Virus record (IMG/VR): IMGVR_UViG_3300018424_000258
Location: 1-23,829 of that record
Origin: a virus
Length of the DNA: 23,829 nucleotides
Reading direction: 5' to 3' (one strand)
Shown piece by piece: positions 19,361 to 23,829 of the stretch; positions within the stretch are counted from its first letter, which is position 1, and each line of letters opens with the position of its first letter. The translations under genes were made by a program, and so were the position numbers. The notes under the pieces were generated by a model that was not told where the DNA came from, made no database searches, and saw only the letters and a list, made by a program, of their open reading frames with translations.

Positions 19361-20217
19361 TTTCGCTGATAGGCATAGGCGAAGCAGGCTGCAATATGGT
19401 TTCTCTATTCGAGAACCATAAAGAATATAATTGTTTCTTGTTCTCTCCTGAGCAAGAAAACACAAAGTATACGAGAAAATTACCAAGAGTAGCAAAAGCA
19501 GAAGATTGTGAGAGAGAGGCACCCAAACTATCTTCTTACAAGACAAAAGAAGCAATACAAAGCAGAGTTCAGGTGTTCCTTTGCGGATCATCATTTTCTG
19601 CGAACTATACACTGGCAATACTGGAACAGATAAAGGACAGGCAGATAGACATTTTCTACATAAAGCCAGATGTAGACCTATTAATTGGAGAAGTAAAATT
19701 ACAAGAGAGAGCAATCTTTGGTATCCTACAAGAATACGCAAGATCTGGTTTGTTCAACAGTTTTACAATCTTCTCTAACCCAGCCATCGAGAAGACAATA
19801 GGTGAGATACCAATAAAAAAATACTTTGAGATGATAAACAAAAACATCTATTATGCTGTTCATTATCTAAATGTATTTGATCATACGACACCGCTTGTAG
19901 GTAATCTTTCCAAGCCCTCAGAGGTACAGAAAATACGCTCTGTTGGCATCATTTCGGTTGACAAACTAAGCGAGCAATGGTACTATGATTTACAGGAAGA
20001 TCGTGACGTAGCATACTATTTATGTATAGCAACTGAGCGCTTAGAGAACGATGGCAAGCTTCATGCGAAGGTAGTCCAGAGTCTCAAAAGCAAACCCCGG
20101 AATGCATTCAAGAATGTGACTTATGCTATCTATGAGTCACCCTACGAAAGCGATTTTGGATTCTGCGTAGCACATACAAATTTTATTCAAGGATTAGTAC
20201 TTGACAGCACAGGCTGA
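19357..20217 (+). CDS. Divergent FtsZ/tubulin-fold protein
   Basis: The 286-residue product looks like a reduced FtsZ/tubulin protein. Residues 2-19 contain LIGIGEAGCNMV, matching the FtsZ T1 loop pattern GxGxxGxNxV. A second strand CFLFSPEQEN (26-35) sits where FtsZ has AVNTD. CGSSFSANYTLAILEQI (76-92) lies where FtsZ has GGGTGTGAAPVIAE. Then come a strand with KP (about 98-105) like TKPF, a helix, FTIFSNPAIEKTIGEIP (136-152) like VIPNDKLL, and a long helix like FtsZ H7-H8. The T4 phosphate loop lost most glycines and no NxDxxD T7 loop is visible, so GTP hydrolysis is doubtful. Its ATG overlaps the polymerase stop by 4 nt, with AAGGAA at 19343. A general Rossmann-type protein is the alternative. 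Confidence 0.55.
   Translation: MISLIGIGEAGCNMVSLFENHKEYNCFLFSPEQENTKYTRKLPRVAKAEDCEREAPKLSSYKTKEAIQSRVQVFLCGSSFSANYTLAILEQIKDRQIDIFYIKPDVDLLIGEVKLQERAIFGILQEYARSGLFNSFTIFSNPAIEKTIGEIPIKKYFEMINKNIYYAVHYLNVFDHTTPLVGNLSKPSEVQKIRSVGIISVDKLSEQWYYDLQEDRDVAYYLCIATERLENDGKLHAKVVQSLKSKPRNAFKNVTYAIYESPYESDFGFCVAHTNFIQGLVLDSTG
19958..19986 (+). promoter_or_regulatory. Sigma70-type promoter inside the FtsZ-like gene
   Basis: TTGACA (19958-19963), a 17-nt spacer and TACTAT (19981-19986) with an extended -10 TG (19978-19979). It lies in coding sequence 371 nt before the gp32-like start, upstream of two more promoters of the same design. It could be a chance match. Confidence 0.45.
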
Positions 20218-20229
20218 TCACGTTACATT
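20201..20229 (+). promoter_or_regulatory. Sigma70-type promoter P1 for the gp32-like gene
   Basis: TTGACA (20201-20206), 17-nt spacer, TACATT (20224-20229). The stop codon of the FtsZ-like gene lies inside the spacer. It is the upstream copy of a tandem pair. Confidence 0.7.
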
Positions 20230-20276
20230 AGAGATGAGCAAGGGAACGCTCTAAACATCACCCAAAACAAATACGC

Positions 20277-20305
20277 TTGACAGGACTTGGAGAGCGTGTT
20301 ACATT
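20277..20305 (+). promoter_or_regulatory. Sigma70-type promoter P2 for the gp32-like gene
   Basis: TTGACA (20277-20282), 17-nt spacer and TACATT (20300-20305) with an extended -10 TG at 20297-20298. GAGCGT (20292-20297) and ACGCTC (20319-20324) form an inverted repeat around the -10 box, a possible operator. The leader to ATG 20357 would be about 45 nt. Confidence 0.75.
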
Positions 20306-20356
20306 GAGATGGCGAGGAACGCTCGTCATACTATAGCCCAACACAAGGAGAACATT

Positions 20357-21118
20357 ATGGGAATCAACATGGAACTTATGCGGAAGAAGCTCGCCGCACT
20401 TCGTGGAGAAGGAAAGAGCGACCGAACCAGTGTGTGGTTCAAGCCAGAAGAGGGAGATACTGACATTCGTATCGTACCCGCAGCAGACGGAGACCCACTC
20501 AAGGAAGTCTTCTTCCACTACAACATCGAAGGTCATCGCGCTGGTGTGATGTGCCCGAAGCGCAACTTCGGTGAAGAGTGCCCGATTTGCGATTTTGCAT
20601 CACAGCTTTGGCGTGATGGTACTGAAAGCAACGACGAGGAAACCAAGAAGCTTGCAAAGTCTCTCTTTGTTCGCACTCGTTACTTCTCACCGGTAGTTGT
20701 TCGTGGTCTTGAGTCCGAGGGCATCAAGGTCTATGGTTACGGCAAACAGGCATACGAACTGCTTCTTGGTTACATCCTTGACCCAGAGTATGGTGACATC
20801 ACCGATCCCAAGGGCGGCACTGACATCACTATCACCTACACCAAGCCAACTCGTCCGGGTGCATACCCACAAACCAACATGAAGATGCGTCGTAACACCA
20901 CTGCACTTCTTGAGGATGCAGACGCAATTCCGGGTCTGCTCCAGAACATGCCCGACATTGACGCACTTTTCACCCGTCATAGCCCGAAGGAAGTCAGTGC
21001 AATTCTTGACTCCATGCTTTCGGGTGACAAGTCTGCTGAGTCTCGTTCCCGTGAGACTACACAATACAACCAGAAGTCAAGCGTTGATAAGGCGTTTGAT
21101 GATCTGATGGCTGGCTAG
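20357..21118 (+). CDS. 32: Single-stranded DNA-binding protein (T4 gp32-like)
   Basis: This 254-residue protein coats ssDNA in replication and recombination and partners with UvsX. The N-terminus MELMRKKLAALRG is a basic helix like the cooperative (LAST) region of gp32. The zinc site is H54-x11-C66-x8-C75-x2-C78, almost the T4 spacing (H64, C77, C87, C90). The core continues with KSLFVRTRYFSPVVVRG and KVYGYGKQAYELLLGYI, resembling gp32 strands. The C-terminus has a short acidic piece (DKAFDDLMAG) that fits a protein-contact tail. T4 gp32 is 301 residues. I prefer ATG 20357 with AAGGAG at 20345-20350 over an in-frame ATG at 20309, which lies 4 nt after the P2 -10 box and so would not be on that transcript. 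Two or three promoters precede it. Confidence 0.88.
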   Translation: MGINMELMRKKLAALRGEGKSDRTSVWFKPEEGDTDIRIVPAADGDPLKEVFFHYNIEGHRAGVMCPKRNFGEECPICDFASQLWRDGTESNDEETKKLAKSLFVRTRYFSPVVVRGLESEGIKVYGYGKQAYELLLGYILDPEYGDITDPKGGTDITITYTKPTRPGAYPQTNMKMRRNTTALLEDADAIPGLLQNMPDIDALFTRHSPKEVSAILDSMLSGDKSAESRSRETTQYNQKSSVDKAFDDLMAG

Positions 21119-21140
21119 TAAAAGCGTACCGCTCCAGTCG

Positions 21141-21169
21141 CCCCCACCCCTAAAAAGGTGGGGGTTTTT
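21141..21169 (+). terminator. Rho-independent terminator after the gp32-like gene
   Basis: CCCCCACC (21141-21148) and GGTGGGGG (21157-21164) form an 8-bp stem with an 8-nt loop, followed by TTTTTG. It separates the ssDNA-binding gene from the UvsX promoter, which starts 3 nt after the T-run. Confidence 0.92.
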
Positions 21170-21171
21170 GT

Positions 21172-21200
21172 TTGCACTTTTGCTTTTGGTATGTTATAAT
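21172..21200 (+). promoter_or_regulatory. Sigma70-type promoter of the UvsX gene
   Basis: TTGCAC (21172-21177), 17-nt spacer and a perfect TATAAT (21195-21200) with extended -10 TG at 21192-21193. Transcription should begin near 21207, leaving a leader of about 60 nt before ATG 21269. Confidence 0.85.
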
Positions 21201-21207
21201 TACTAAT

Positions 21208-21219
21208 GAGCTTCGGCTC
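21208..21219 (+). other. UUCG-tetraloop hairpin at the 5' end of the UvsX message
   Basis: GAGC-TTCG-GCTC forms a 4-bp stem with a UUCG loop, closed by C-G, an unusually stable combination. It begins one base after the predicted transcription start, so the message would start with this hairpin, followed by an A-rich unstructured stretch up to the ribosome site AAAGGAG (21256-21262). A 5' end protection role is plausible. Confidence 0.6.
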
Positions 21220-21268
21220 GAAATTAAAGAAAAATAAAGAAAAGAAAAATTAAATAAAGGAGAACTAT

Positions 21269-22387
21269 ATGGCTAAAGCAACAGCTAAGGCTGGGCGTGT
21301 ATCTATGTCCGATCTTAGAGCAATGATAAACAAGAAGGCAAAGCGTAATGTCGCACATGACCTTCGTGAAGATAACCCGACAGAAGTAAAGTTATGGATT
21401 CCTACAGGATCTCGATGGCTTGACTCAATTATCTGCAAGGGCAAGTACGCAGGTATTCCAGTTGGAAAGGTAACAGAACTTGCAGGACTTGAGGCAACAG
21501 GTAAGTCTTTCCTCGCAGCACAGATTGCAGCAAATGCACAGAAGATGGGTATTGGAGTTGTATACTTTGATTCAGAGTCTGCAATTGATCCCGGTTTTTT
21601 GGAACGTGCAGGTTGTGATCTAGAAACACTTATGTATATTCAGACACCATCTGTTGAGTTTGTGCTTGAGACAATTGAAGACATTCTTGGTGCGACAGAC
21701 GACAAGATGTTATTTATCTGGGACTCCCTCGCATTCACTCCCTCAGTATCAGATGTTGAAGGGGACTTCAACCCACAATCTTCAGTGGCAACCAAGGCAC
21801 GTATTCTTGCCAAGGGTATGTCAAAGTTGATTGTGCCGCTTGCAGATAAACAGGCAACTTTCCTTGTCCTCAACCAGTTGAAGACAAACATCCCACAGGG
21901 ACCGATGGCTCGTCAAATTGCAATGACAACCCCTTACATCACTCCGGGCGGTAAGGCAATGCACTACTCCTATTCTCTTCGTATCTGGCTTACAGGTCGT
22001 AAGAGCAAGGCAGCATACATCGAAGATGACAACGGTTTCCGTATTGGATCCGAGGTTAAGGTAAAACTTGAAAAGTCTCGCTTTGGAACACAGGGAAGAA
22101 ACTGTACATTCCGTATTCTTTGGGGAACAGACCATGTTGGCGTTCAAGATGAGGCATCTTGGTTTGAGGCTCTCAAGAACTTTATGGATGTTTCAGGTTC
22201 TTGGTATACTTTTCAGCATGGCAGCTACTCCAAGCGGTTCCAGCCCAGCAAGTGGGTAACTCTTCTTGAGAAAGACGAAGAATTTAAGAAGCATGTTATG
22301 GAAAAGATGGATGAAGTTGTAGTCCAGAAGTTTGATAAGCGTGAAGGCGATGCTTCAGAGTTCTATGAGGTAGACAAAGCCTCTTGA
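21269..22387 (+). CDS. uvsX: UvsX/RecA-like recombinase
   Basis: A 372-residue strand-exchange ATPase that forms filaments on ssDNA for recombination-dependent replication and repair. Walker A is GLEATGKS (73-80), the catalytic glutamate lies in FDSES (E103), and Walker B is MLFIWDS with D152. Motifs typical of RecA follow: FLVLNQLKTNI (about 204-214) and PYITPGGKAMHYSYSLRIWL with the GGKA loop (about 225-245). The length is near T4 UvsX (391). ATG 21269 follows AAAGGAG at 6 nt spacing. It has its own promoter and stands between the gp32-like protein and the 5' nuclease. Its TGA is part of the -35 box of the next promoter. Confidence 0.95.
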   Translation: MAKATAKAGRVSMSDLRAMINKKAKRNVAHDLREDNPTEVKLWIPTGSRWLDSIICKGKYAGIPVGKVTELAGLEATGKSFLAAQIAANAQKMGIGVVYFDSESAIDPGFLERAGCDLETLMYIQTPSVEFVLETIEDILGATDDKMLFIWDSLAFTPSVSDVEGDFNPQSSVATKARILAKGMSKLIVPLADKQATFLVLNQLKTNIPQGPMARQIAMTTPYITPGGKAMHYSYSLRIWLTGRKSKAAYIEDDNGFRIGSEVKVKLEKSRFGTQGRNCTFRILWGTDHVGVQDEASWFEALKNFMDVSGSWYTFQHGSYSKRFQPSKWVTLLEKDEEFKKHVMEKMDEVVVQKFDKREGDASEFYEVDKAS

Positions 22388-22412
22388 CAGCGTGCCTCCA
22401 CCCTGTTATATT
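22384..22412 (+). promoter_or_regulatory. Sigma70-type promoter of the 5' nuclease gene
   Basis: A perfect TTGACA (22384-22389), 17-nt spacer and TATATT (22407-22412) with extended -10 TG at 22404-22405. Transcription would start near 22419, only about 12 nt before ATG 22431. Confidence 0.85.
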
Positions 22413-22424
22413 ATGGGGTGGAGG
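22395..22424 (+). promoter_or_regulatory. Hairpin that would mask the ribosome binding site of the 5' nuclease gene
   Basis: CCTCCACCC (22395-22403) is perfectly complementary to GGGTGGAGG (22416-22424), with a 12-nt AT-rich loop. The right arm contains GGAGG, the Shine-Dalgarno site for ATG 22431. The promoter -10 box lies in the loop, so transcripts from that promoter lack the left arm. Only read-through messages from UvsX would fold. There is no T-run, so a terminator is unlikely. Confidence 0.7.
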
Positions 22425-22430
22425 TAATCT

Positions 22431-23396
22431 ATGAAGCGTGTACTCGTTATCGACGCCCTCAATATGTTTTTGAGGGCGTTTATTGTTGATCCCAGTCTGT
22501 CTCAGCACGGACAGCCAATCGGTGGCATCAAGGGATCATTCAAGATTTTACAAAAATTGGTAAGAATTACAAAGCCAAATGAAATTGTTATCTGCTGGGA
22601 TGGACCCAATGGTTCACAAAAGCGTAAGACTCTGAACTCAAACTACAAAGAAGGTCGTAAGCCCCTGCGTTTGAACCGCGCTGTTCACAATCTAACTGAA
22701 AATGAAGAGCTACAGAACAAATTGTGGCAGCAGATGAGAACAATTGAATACTTCAACCACATGCCCATCATTCAGCTTATGTTGGAAAGGGTTGAGGCAG
22801 ATGATATCATTTCGTATGTTTGTAATTCTCGACATTATGATGGTTGGCAAAAGGTAATTGTCTCAAACGACAAGGACTTCTTGCAATTGTGTGACGAGGA
22901 AACTGTAGTCTACAGACCAACGACAGATAAGATTGAAACAAAGAAGACTGTGGTTGAGTCACTCGGTATCCATCCGACAAACATGGCTCTCGCCCGCGCA
23001 ATGGTTGGTGACTCAAGCGATAACCTTCCGGGTGTTAGTCGTGTTGGCTTCAAAACAATTGCTGGTAAGCTACCCTTTATGGCAGAGGAGCGTTCTATCA
23101 CAATTGATGAACTCATTGATCATTGTGAGAACATAGAATCAAAACTAAAAGTTTATAAGAACATTGTTAGTTCTCGTGCCCTTATCGAACACAACTACGA
23201 CATGATGCAGCTATATTCTCCTCTTATCTCTGTTCAGGGCAAGCAGACCATTGATTATGGGCTTGAAAACTTTGAATGTGATTTTCAAAAAACAGAACTT
23301 CTCAGGCTTATGTTAGAAGATGGCTTTGGTGAGTTAAATTGGGAAGAGTTAAAAACATTCCTAAACAAAATTTCAAGGGAATGTAATGAGAAATGA
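22431..23396 (+). CDS. rnh: 5'-3' exonuclease / flap nuclease (T4 RNase H and Pol I 5'-nuclease family)
   Basis: The 321-residue product would remove RNA primers and flaps. Acidic metal-binding residues are in place: D8 (VLVIDALN), D57 (ICWDGPNG), E122/D124/D125 (VEADDI), D147/D149 (SNDKDF), D194/D197 (VGDSSDNLPGV). The helical-arch stretch NYKEGRKPLR (71-80) and the helix-hairpin-helix after DNLPGVSRVG (about 198-210) complete the family pattern. T4 RNase H has 305 residues. Given the polymerase at 18170 lacks this domain, the two may act together in trans as in Pol I. Start ATG 22431 has GGAGG 6 nt upstream. The gene symbol follows T4; orthology rests on motifs. Confidence 0.88.
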   Translation: MKRVLVIDALNMFLRAFIVDPSLSQHGQPIGGIKGSFKILQKLVRITKPNEIVICWDGPNGSQKRKTLNSNYKEGRKPLRLNRAVHNLTENEELQNKLWQQMRTIEYFNHMPIIQLMLERVEADDIISYVCNSRHYDGWQKVIVSNDKDFLQLCDEETVVYRPTTDKIETKKTVVESLGIHPTNMALARAMVGDSSDNLPGVSRVGFKTIAGKLPFMAEERSITIDELIDHCENIESKLKVYKNIVSSRALIEHNYDMMQLYSPLISVQGKQTIDYGLENFECDFQKTELLRLMLEDGFGELNWEELKTFLNKISRECNEK

Positions 23397-23409
23397 CACT
23401 ATTTACTAC
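23397..23409 (+). promoter_or_regulatory. Candidate late-promoter element CACTATTTACTAC (second exact copy)
   Basis: Exact 13-nt copy of the element at 2133-2145. It begins immediately after the 5' nuclease stop and ends 13 nt before ATG 23423. It suggests that the following gene is expressed like the structural genes. Confidence 0.35.
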
Positions 23410-23422
23410 CGAGGTGTAGTAA

Positions 23423-23829
23423 ATGGAAGAACTTTACGAATTTGATGAAGATTTTCTCAACGAAGAGGAAGTTGAATTAGATGAAAAGAAGAAAAAGAAA
23501 AGTGGCGGCAAGAAAGACGCCTGCTATCACAAGGTAAAGGCTCGCTACGATGTGTGGCCATCTGCCTACGCCAGTGGCGCACTTGTCAAATGCCGCAAGG
23601 TTGGTGCTGCTAACTGGGGCAACAAGTCAAAGAAAAAGAACGAAGGCATCGAGTTTGACGATCACCTTCTTCAGATCATTAAAGAGGAATACGCAGCCGT
23701 CATAGCCGAAAAAAAAAAGTTAACGGCTAAGCCTTCTTCCGAGAGTAGCCTCAAAGACTGGTTTGGTCGCAAGGGTGCTCCCGGCAAGAAAGGAGGCTGG
23801 GTTGACTGCAATACTTGTCGCAAAGACAA
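23423..23829 (+). CDS. Acidic/lysine-rich Cys protein, 3' end outside the window (DUF5872-like)
   Basis: An open frame runs from ATG 23423 to the window edge, giving 135 residues without a stop. It starts with an acidic stretch (EELYEFDEDFLNEEE), then a poly-lysine patch. A conserved-looking block DACYHKVKARYDVWPSAYA followed by GALVKCRKVGAANWGNKSKK comes at about residues 36-76, and a second block at about 115-135 with KDWFGRKG, GGWVDCNTCRKD. These two blocks recur in small proteins of aquatic phages and giant viruses, and the second starts a Cys-rich, zinc-ribbon-like end (CxxC). The function is unknown to me. GAGGTG at 23411-23416 is the ribosome site. The two domain blocks could bind nucleic acid, given their basic charge. 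Confidence 0.7.
   Translation, partial: MEELYEFDEDFLNEEEVELDEKKKKKSGGKKDACYHKVKARYDVWPSAYASGALVKCRKVGAANWGNKSKKKNEGIEFDDHLLQIIKEEYAAVIAEKKKLTAKPSSESSLKDWFGRKGAPGKKGGWVDCNTCRKD

Follow-up and report, generated by a model that had tools for sequence, protein, structure and literature searches.

A conserved hairpin predicted to mask a nuclease ribosome site encloses a sigma70-type promoter downstream of uvsX in uncultured phages

The stretch of DNA analysed here (the window, 23,829 nucleotides) is a 23.8-kb virus fragment carrying T4-like head, tail and replication genes, among them genes for the major capsid protein, sheath, tube, baseplate, DNA polymerase, SSB, UvsX and a 5'-3' nuclease. A DNA search against named phages gave no match and a protein search recovered distant relatives only; Rfam covariance models likewise gave no match at E up to 1 across positions 20000-23829. 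Many relatives are present in IMG/VR, and 28 distinct sequences from that collection form our set of close relatives. The region from the end of the SSB (gp32-like) gene to the nuclease gene is organised as follows.

21140-21170, + strand: intrinsic-terminator-like hairpin with a T run, between the SSB gene and uvsX; kept in close relatives
21171-21200, + strand: promoter-like site of uvsX, TTTGCA-18-TGTTATAAT; kept in most close relatives
21269-22387, + strand: uvsX-like recombinase gene (open reading frame; PHROG 97, E 1.9e-56)
22431-23396, + strand: 5'-3' exonuclease or flap-nuclease-like gene (open reading frame; PHROG 107, E 6e-27)

The uvsX stop (22385-22387) and the nuclease ATG (22431) are separated by a gap of 43 bases, and a scan of this intergenic space found no terminator between the two genes; because of this, a polymerase starting at the uvsX promoter would be expected to continue into the nuclease gene. 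Since uvsX is preceded by a terminator and has a promoter of its own, the read-through RNA that reaches the nuclease gene probably comes from the promoter-like site at 21171-21200, whose -35 is poorer than that of the nuclease promoter described below. Read-through from late genes, as a reason for masking the nuclease, was set aside on the same grounds.

Other signals were noticed in the window. The uvsX leader starts with a small hairpin, GAGCTTCGGCTC (window 21205-21222), in which both strands of the stem differ in relatives (GGGCTTTGTCCC, GGGCTTGGACCC) and which is perhaps a 5' stabiliser. The leader of the SSB gene (window 20306-20330) is also foldable, as ATGGCGAG..CTCGTCAT, and relatives show paired changes there (ATGGTGAG..CTCATCAT and ATGGTAAG..CTTACTAT); by analogy with T4 gene 32 it is a possible autoregulatory site. 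Shortly 5' of two genes (window 2134 and 23398) is a motif, ACTATTTACTAC, that is conserved in the related G001 and G003, resembles a site 5' of the endonuclease inserted in L148, and is a candidate late promoter; CTATTTA is also found 5' of other structural genes.

The junction between uvsX and the nuclease gene holds a hairpin and a promoter that overlap, and the nuclease coding region contains another hairpin.

22384-22389, + strand: -35 element TTGACA, overlapping the uvsX stop TGA; invariant in the 28 close relatives
22393-22406, + strand: left arm of the hairpin, within the promoter spacer; pairs with the Shine-Dalgarno arm, by fold and covariation
22407-22412, + strand: -10 hexamer TATATT, forming the whole six-base hairpin loop; extended TG at 22404-22405
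22413-22426, + strand: right arm of the hairpin, with the predicted transcription start inside it
22420-22424, + strand: nuclease Shine-Dalgarno sequence GGAGG, in the right arm; masked in read-through RNA by the predicted fold
22452-22480, + strand: second hairpin, 11 pairs, inside the nuclease coding region (z -5.0; terminator-like in the scan)

A sequence-only reading of this DNA had described a perfect 9-bp stem here. The stem is real and lies where that reading put it, and it is longer than claimed, running to 14 pairs (22393-22406 with 22413-22426) with G-U pairs included; by computation the RNA from 22388 to 22430 folds into this single hairpin at -24.5 kcal/mol (z -5.4), and none of 200 dinucleotide shuffles was as stable. 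The GGAGG-containing arm upstream of the ATG was placed correctly too, as was the near-consensus promoter with its -10 in the loop: TTGACA-17-TGTTATATT matches 11 of 12 consensus bases, has 17-nt spacing and an extended TG, and is the best promoter-like match on both strands of 21200-23829. From the position of the -10 we infer that nuclease transcription starts at about 22418-22420, in which case the leader of the nuclease's own transcript would measure just about 11-13 nt. This promoter is one of numerous TTGACA-N15-GTTANNTT sites in these phage genomes, which are concentrated 5' of small genes and have an early appearance; the gene that it serves encodes a replication/repair nuclease. Because the nuclease and uvsX promoters both appear sigma70-like, a timing advantage of the arrangement is not evident.

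Synonymous variation at nuclease codons 8-16, at the second hairpin, is among the lowest in the gene, and in distant relatives the pairing at 22452-22480 tends to be preserved through synonymous change (permutation p 0.0008, kinship not removed). Any part of this hairpin in the mechanism considered below is unproven.

The consequences of the fold for the ribosome site were computed as the cost of opening GGAGG, which is 14.5 kcal/mol on the read-through RNA and about 2.5 kcal/mol on the nuclease's own RNA (1.9-3.0 for starts at 22418-22420). These values lend computational support to the earlier proposal that the Shine-Dalgarno sequence would be masked on the former and free on the latter. At 105 sites with a promoter, a Shine-Dalgarno sequence and an open reading frame, from nine genomes or contigs, the same difference between read-through and own RNA had a median of 0.9, and the seven largest differences all belonged to the uvsX-3' locus. 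Similarly, the nine strongest duplexes between spacer and downstream sequence, among 288 TTGAC-type promoters, were the uvsX-3' promoters, each genome or contig contributing one. Because the top opening differences and the strongest duplexes all fall at this locus, the masking hairpin is special to it, and is no general habit of promoters in these phages.

A general palindrome at all promoters was considered and rejected, as pairing between spacer and downstream sequence is barely above that of cross-paired controls except at the uvsX-3' locus and at a few pre-tRNA promoters. The latter, upstream of tRNA-Met and tRNA-Leu, have inverted repeats of 6-7 bp around the -10 and no Shine-Dalgarno sequence there to hide (L083 16144-16190 and 17325-17370, corresponding to G001 36044 and 37225; G003 444; G007 12435), with one paired change between phages, from CCCTCC/GGAGGG to CCCTCT/AGAGGG. 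Dozens of promoters of the form TTGACA-N15-GTTACATT lie in the 35-55 kb region of G001 (L083-L084); GTAAC or ATAAC comes next, 5' of the Shine-Dalgarno sequence, so that the -10 is complementary to the beginning of the promoter's own leader.

Conservation of the paired arms, which the sequence-only reading had proposed as a check, was found throughout the 28 close relatives. A 13-pair stem is retained in 98.1% of pair cells, and double-sided changes occur at four different pairs (A-U to U-A, C-G to G-C, and, at two pairs, C-G to U-A); the arms read, for example, CCTCCAGCCC/GGGCTGGAGG in L037, CCTCCTCCCT/AGGGAGGAGG in L041 and CCTCCACTCT/AGAGTGGAGG in L005. This covariation was matched by none of 500 shuffles, a count inflated by the relatedness of the sequences, and was lost when the partner was slid by 1-3 columns; as the four double changes sit at four different pairs, they represent at least four change events. 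Promoter conservation is distinct from that of the stem: TTGACA, G-14, T-13, T-12, A-11 and T-7 are invariant and positions -10 to -8 vary, the pattern expected of a functional -10. Overlap of the uvsX stop with the -35 is retained in nearly all close relatives. Since pairing and promoter are both conserved in relatives, the alignment indicates that both are under selection and do not reflect chance.

More distant phages, with UvsX 74-79% identical, have a promoter at the same spot 3' of uvsX (TTGACA-17-TATACT or TTGACA-17-TATAAT) and GGAGGG in the right arm, with different arms and different downstream genes. In subtype B, AGCCCTCCTG...TAGGAGGGCT surrounds TATACT, often 5' of genes other than the nuclease; its right arm is almost invariant in the alignment, so that double changes are few, and the subtype B alignment was left out of the covariation evidence. 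In subtype C the element reads GGCCCTCCGATTGGT-TATAAT-AAATCAGTCGGAGGG followed by seven T, and scores as a 16-pair terminator (fold -25.2, z -5.7). This recurrence with unrelated arms, and the single occurrence of the arm pair per genome, further strengthen the core of the earlier proposal.

The same observations bear on the idea that the inverted repeat acts as DNA, as a binding site through which a dimeric protein would repress or activate the promoter. A palindrome centred on the -10 box would suit a repressor, and the arms could change jointly along with a changing protein partner. Nevertheless, the arm pair is present just once per genome or contig, and with no second copy in any of them a regulon sharing this operator was rejected; the arms are wholly different between subtypes, yet always pair with GGAGG; and at four pairs the bases changed (among them C-G to G-C and A-T to T-A) without loss of pairing, G-U pairs being tolerated, which fits pairing in RNA. 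We regard an operator as hardly likely at all.

A G+C-rich stem followed by a T run is found in two relatives, L066 (subtype C) and L149, the latter with subtype A arms and then five T. Both score as terminators, and the subtype C hairpin probably also terminates upstream RNA. Two still more distant phages have, as read from their sequences, ordinary terminator-like hairpins at the same place, between uvsX and the next gene. These cases would suit a hairpin whose main role is to end or pause the uvsX RNA, with masking of the Shine-Dalgarno sequence secondary. We think this very unlikely, as the stem in the window and in nearly all close relatives runs into TAATCT, without a T run, and the scan calls no terminator there. 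The simplest reading of the variants would be a recurring need to separate the uvsX RNA from the next gene.

How widely masking extends can be judged from 71 distinct promoter-bearing regions with a scorable start, in 51 of which opening the Shine-Dalgarno sequence on the read-through RNA costs at least 8 kcal/mol; the medians across these regions are 13.0 on read-through and 1.4 on own RNA. Roughly one in four of the relatives that carry the promoter have weak masking or none, and the hairpin is thus not essential family-wide. Thirteen regions have no promoter, and among these none of the three that were scorable was masked. In a few relatives (L031 2900-3005, L033, L052, L148 and L146) homing-endonuclease genes or remnants, HNH-like or GIY-YIG-like by reading, sit just 3' of the hairpin Shine-Dalgarno sequence and displace the nuclease start; in L031, L033, L052 and L148 the hairpin and promoter are still present despite the insertion.

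The strongest of the rival explanations is translational coupling, in which the hairpin blocks free ribosomes, but one that finishes uvsX would sit on the base of the left arm and expose the Shine-Dalgarno sequence, making nuclease yield from read-through RNA proportional to UvsX. In the window the uvsX stop lies just 5 nt 5' of the left arm, a ribosome at the stop would extend to about 22397, and the opening cost falls from 14.5 to 6.7 kcal/mol if the RNA is free from 22398 and to 2.1 kcal/mol if it is free from 22400; the overlap of stop and -35, maintained in nearly all close relatives, also speaks for coupling. Subtypes B and C, however, keep hairpin and promoter though the stop is well upstream of the arm, beyond the ribosome's footprint. 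The hairpin would also refold once the ribosome departs, with the nuclease start 44 nt further 3', and coupling has no need for a full conserved promoter in the loop. Moreover, several of the 13 promoter-less regions place the nuclease start beside or over the uvsX stop, without a hairpin. We therefore judge coupling unlikely as the reason for the element. The mask may nevertheless be less tight whenever a terminating ribosome sits on the outer left arm, a point against the explanation favoured below.

The explanation that we favour, and consider probable, is that hairpin and promoter together form an insulated promoter, tying nuclease output to the nuclease's own promoter and uncoupling it from uvsX transcription. 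The long RNA begun at the uvsX promoter would fold the 14-pair hairpin and bury GGAGG, leaving the nuclease untranslated or poorly translated. A polymerase starting at the sigma70-type promoter, whose -10 is the loop, would begin within the right arm; its RNA would lack the left arm, GGAGG would be free, and the nuclease would be translated. Insulation is thus the purpose that we infer for an element whose anatomy, folding, conservation and compensatory changes are computed directly, with the start site and the effect on translation following from them as predictions. A broader version of the insulated promoter, which we hold to be possible though doubtful, makes the single hairpin a composite part: an insulator against upstream RNA (by masking the Shine-Dalgarno sequence in subtype A, by termination in subtype C), a core promoter and the next gene's Shine-Dalgarno sequence, with arms and downstream genes swapped and the composite part kept. 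Polymerases ending at the subtype C hairpin might even restart there.

An insulated promoter of this kind would be a compact and portable means of separating adjacent genes without a terminator. The case rests on covariation and not on one sequence, and spans a broad group of uncultured phages, mostly marine to judge from the sample depth of the relatives; the family also offers natural variants with masking only, with a terminator-like hairpin or with no hairpin. In the literature searched, which covers few subscription papers, we found no report of an early or sigma70 phage promoter whose -10 is the loop of a hairpin masking a Shine-Dalgarno sequence.

The closest known systems are T4 e, soc and 49 and the intron endonuclease I-TevI, in which late promoters lie within hairpins that mask the Shine-Dalgarno sequence (PMC3014915, PMC2988022); the sequence-only reading had invoked e, soc and 49 as precedents, and the review (PMC3014915) bears this out. 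As in these genes, the Shine-Dalgarno sequence is hidden on RNA from upstream promoters, here as predicted from the stem, opening energy and covariation; a promoter in the 5' part of the hairpin yields an RNA unable to fold, here given the predicted start; and the arrangement is conserved among relatives. The T4 promoters, in contrast, are late promoters of the form TATAAATA, without a -35, and silence late genes on early RNA. That sequence was not found in the window, where, as the earlier reading had it, a sigma70-type promoter with a consensus and invariant -35 (TTGACA-17-TATATT) takes the place of the late promoter, the gene encodes a replication/repair nuclease, and the -10 hexamer makes up the entire loop. 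The element works like the T4 hairpins but does not have a late promoter, and so is not a member of that class.

A second functional parallel is found in the protective hairpins of IS200, which guard against impinging transcription by ending the incoming RNA or hiding the ribosome site (PMC3196728) and so, as is predicted for the phage element, keep outside transcription from making protein; unlike it, they are a transposon device, and that paper does not report a masking hairpin with a promoter -10 in its loop. The Aeh1 mobE and T4 segB endonuclease hairpins mask the ribosome site within a longer transcript (PMC2988022), as is predicted here, but those are homing endonuclease genes with late promoters, whereas the element described here precedes a core phage gene and has, in some relatives, homing-endonuclease genes inserted just 3' of it. 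Set beside these systems, the uvsX-nuclease junction suggests that the T4 logic, in which the origin of an RNA is read from the presence of the left arm, also operates at a core replication locus with a promoter of the ordinary sigma70 type.
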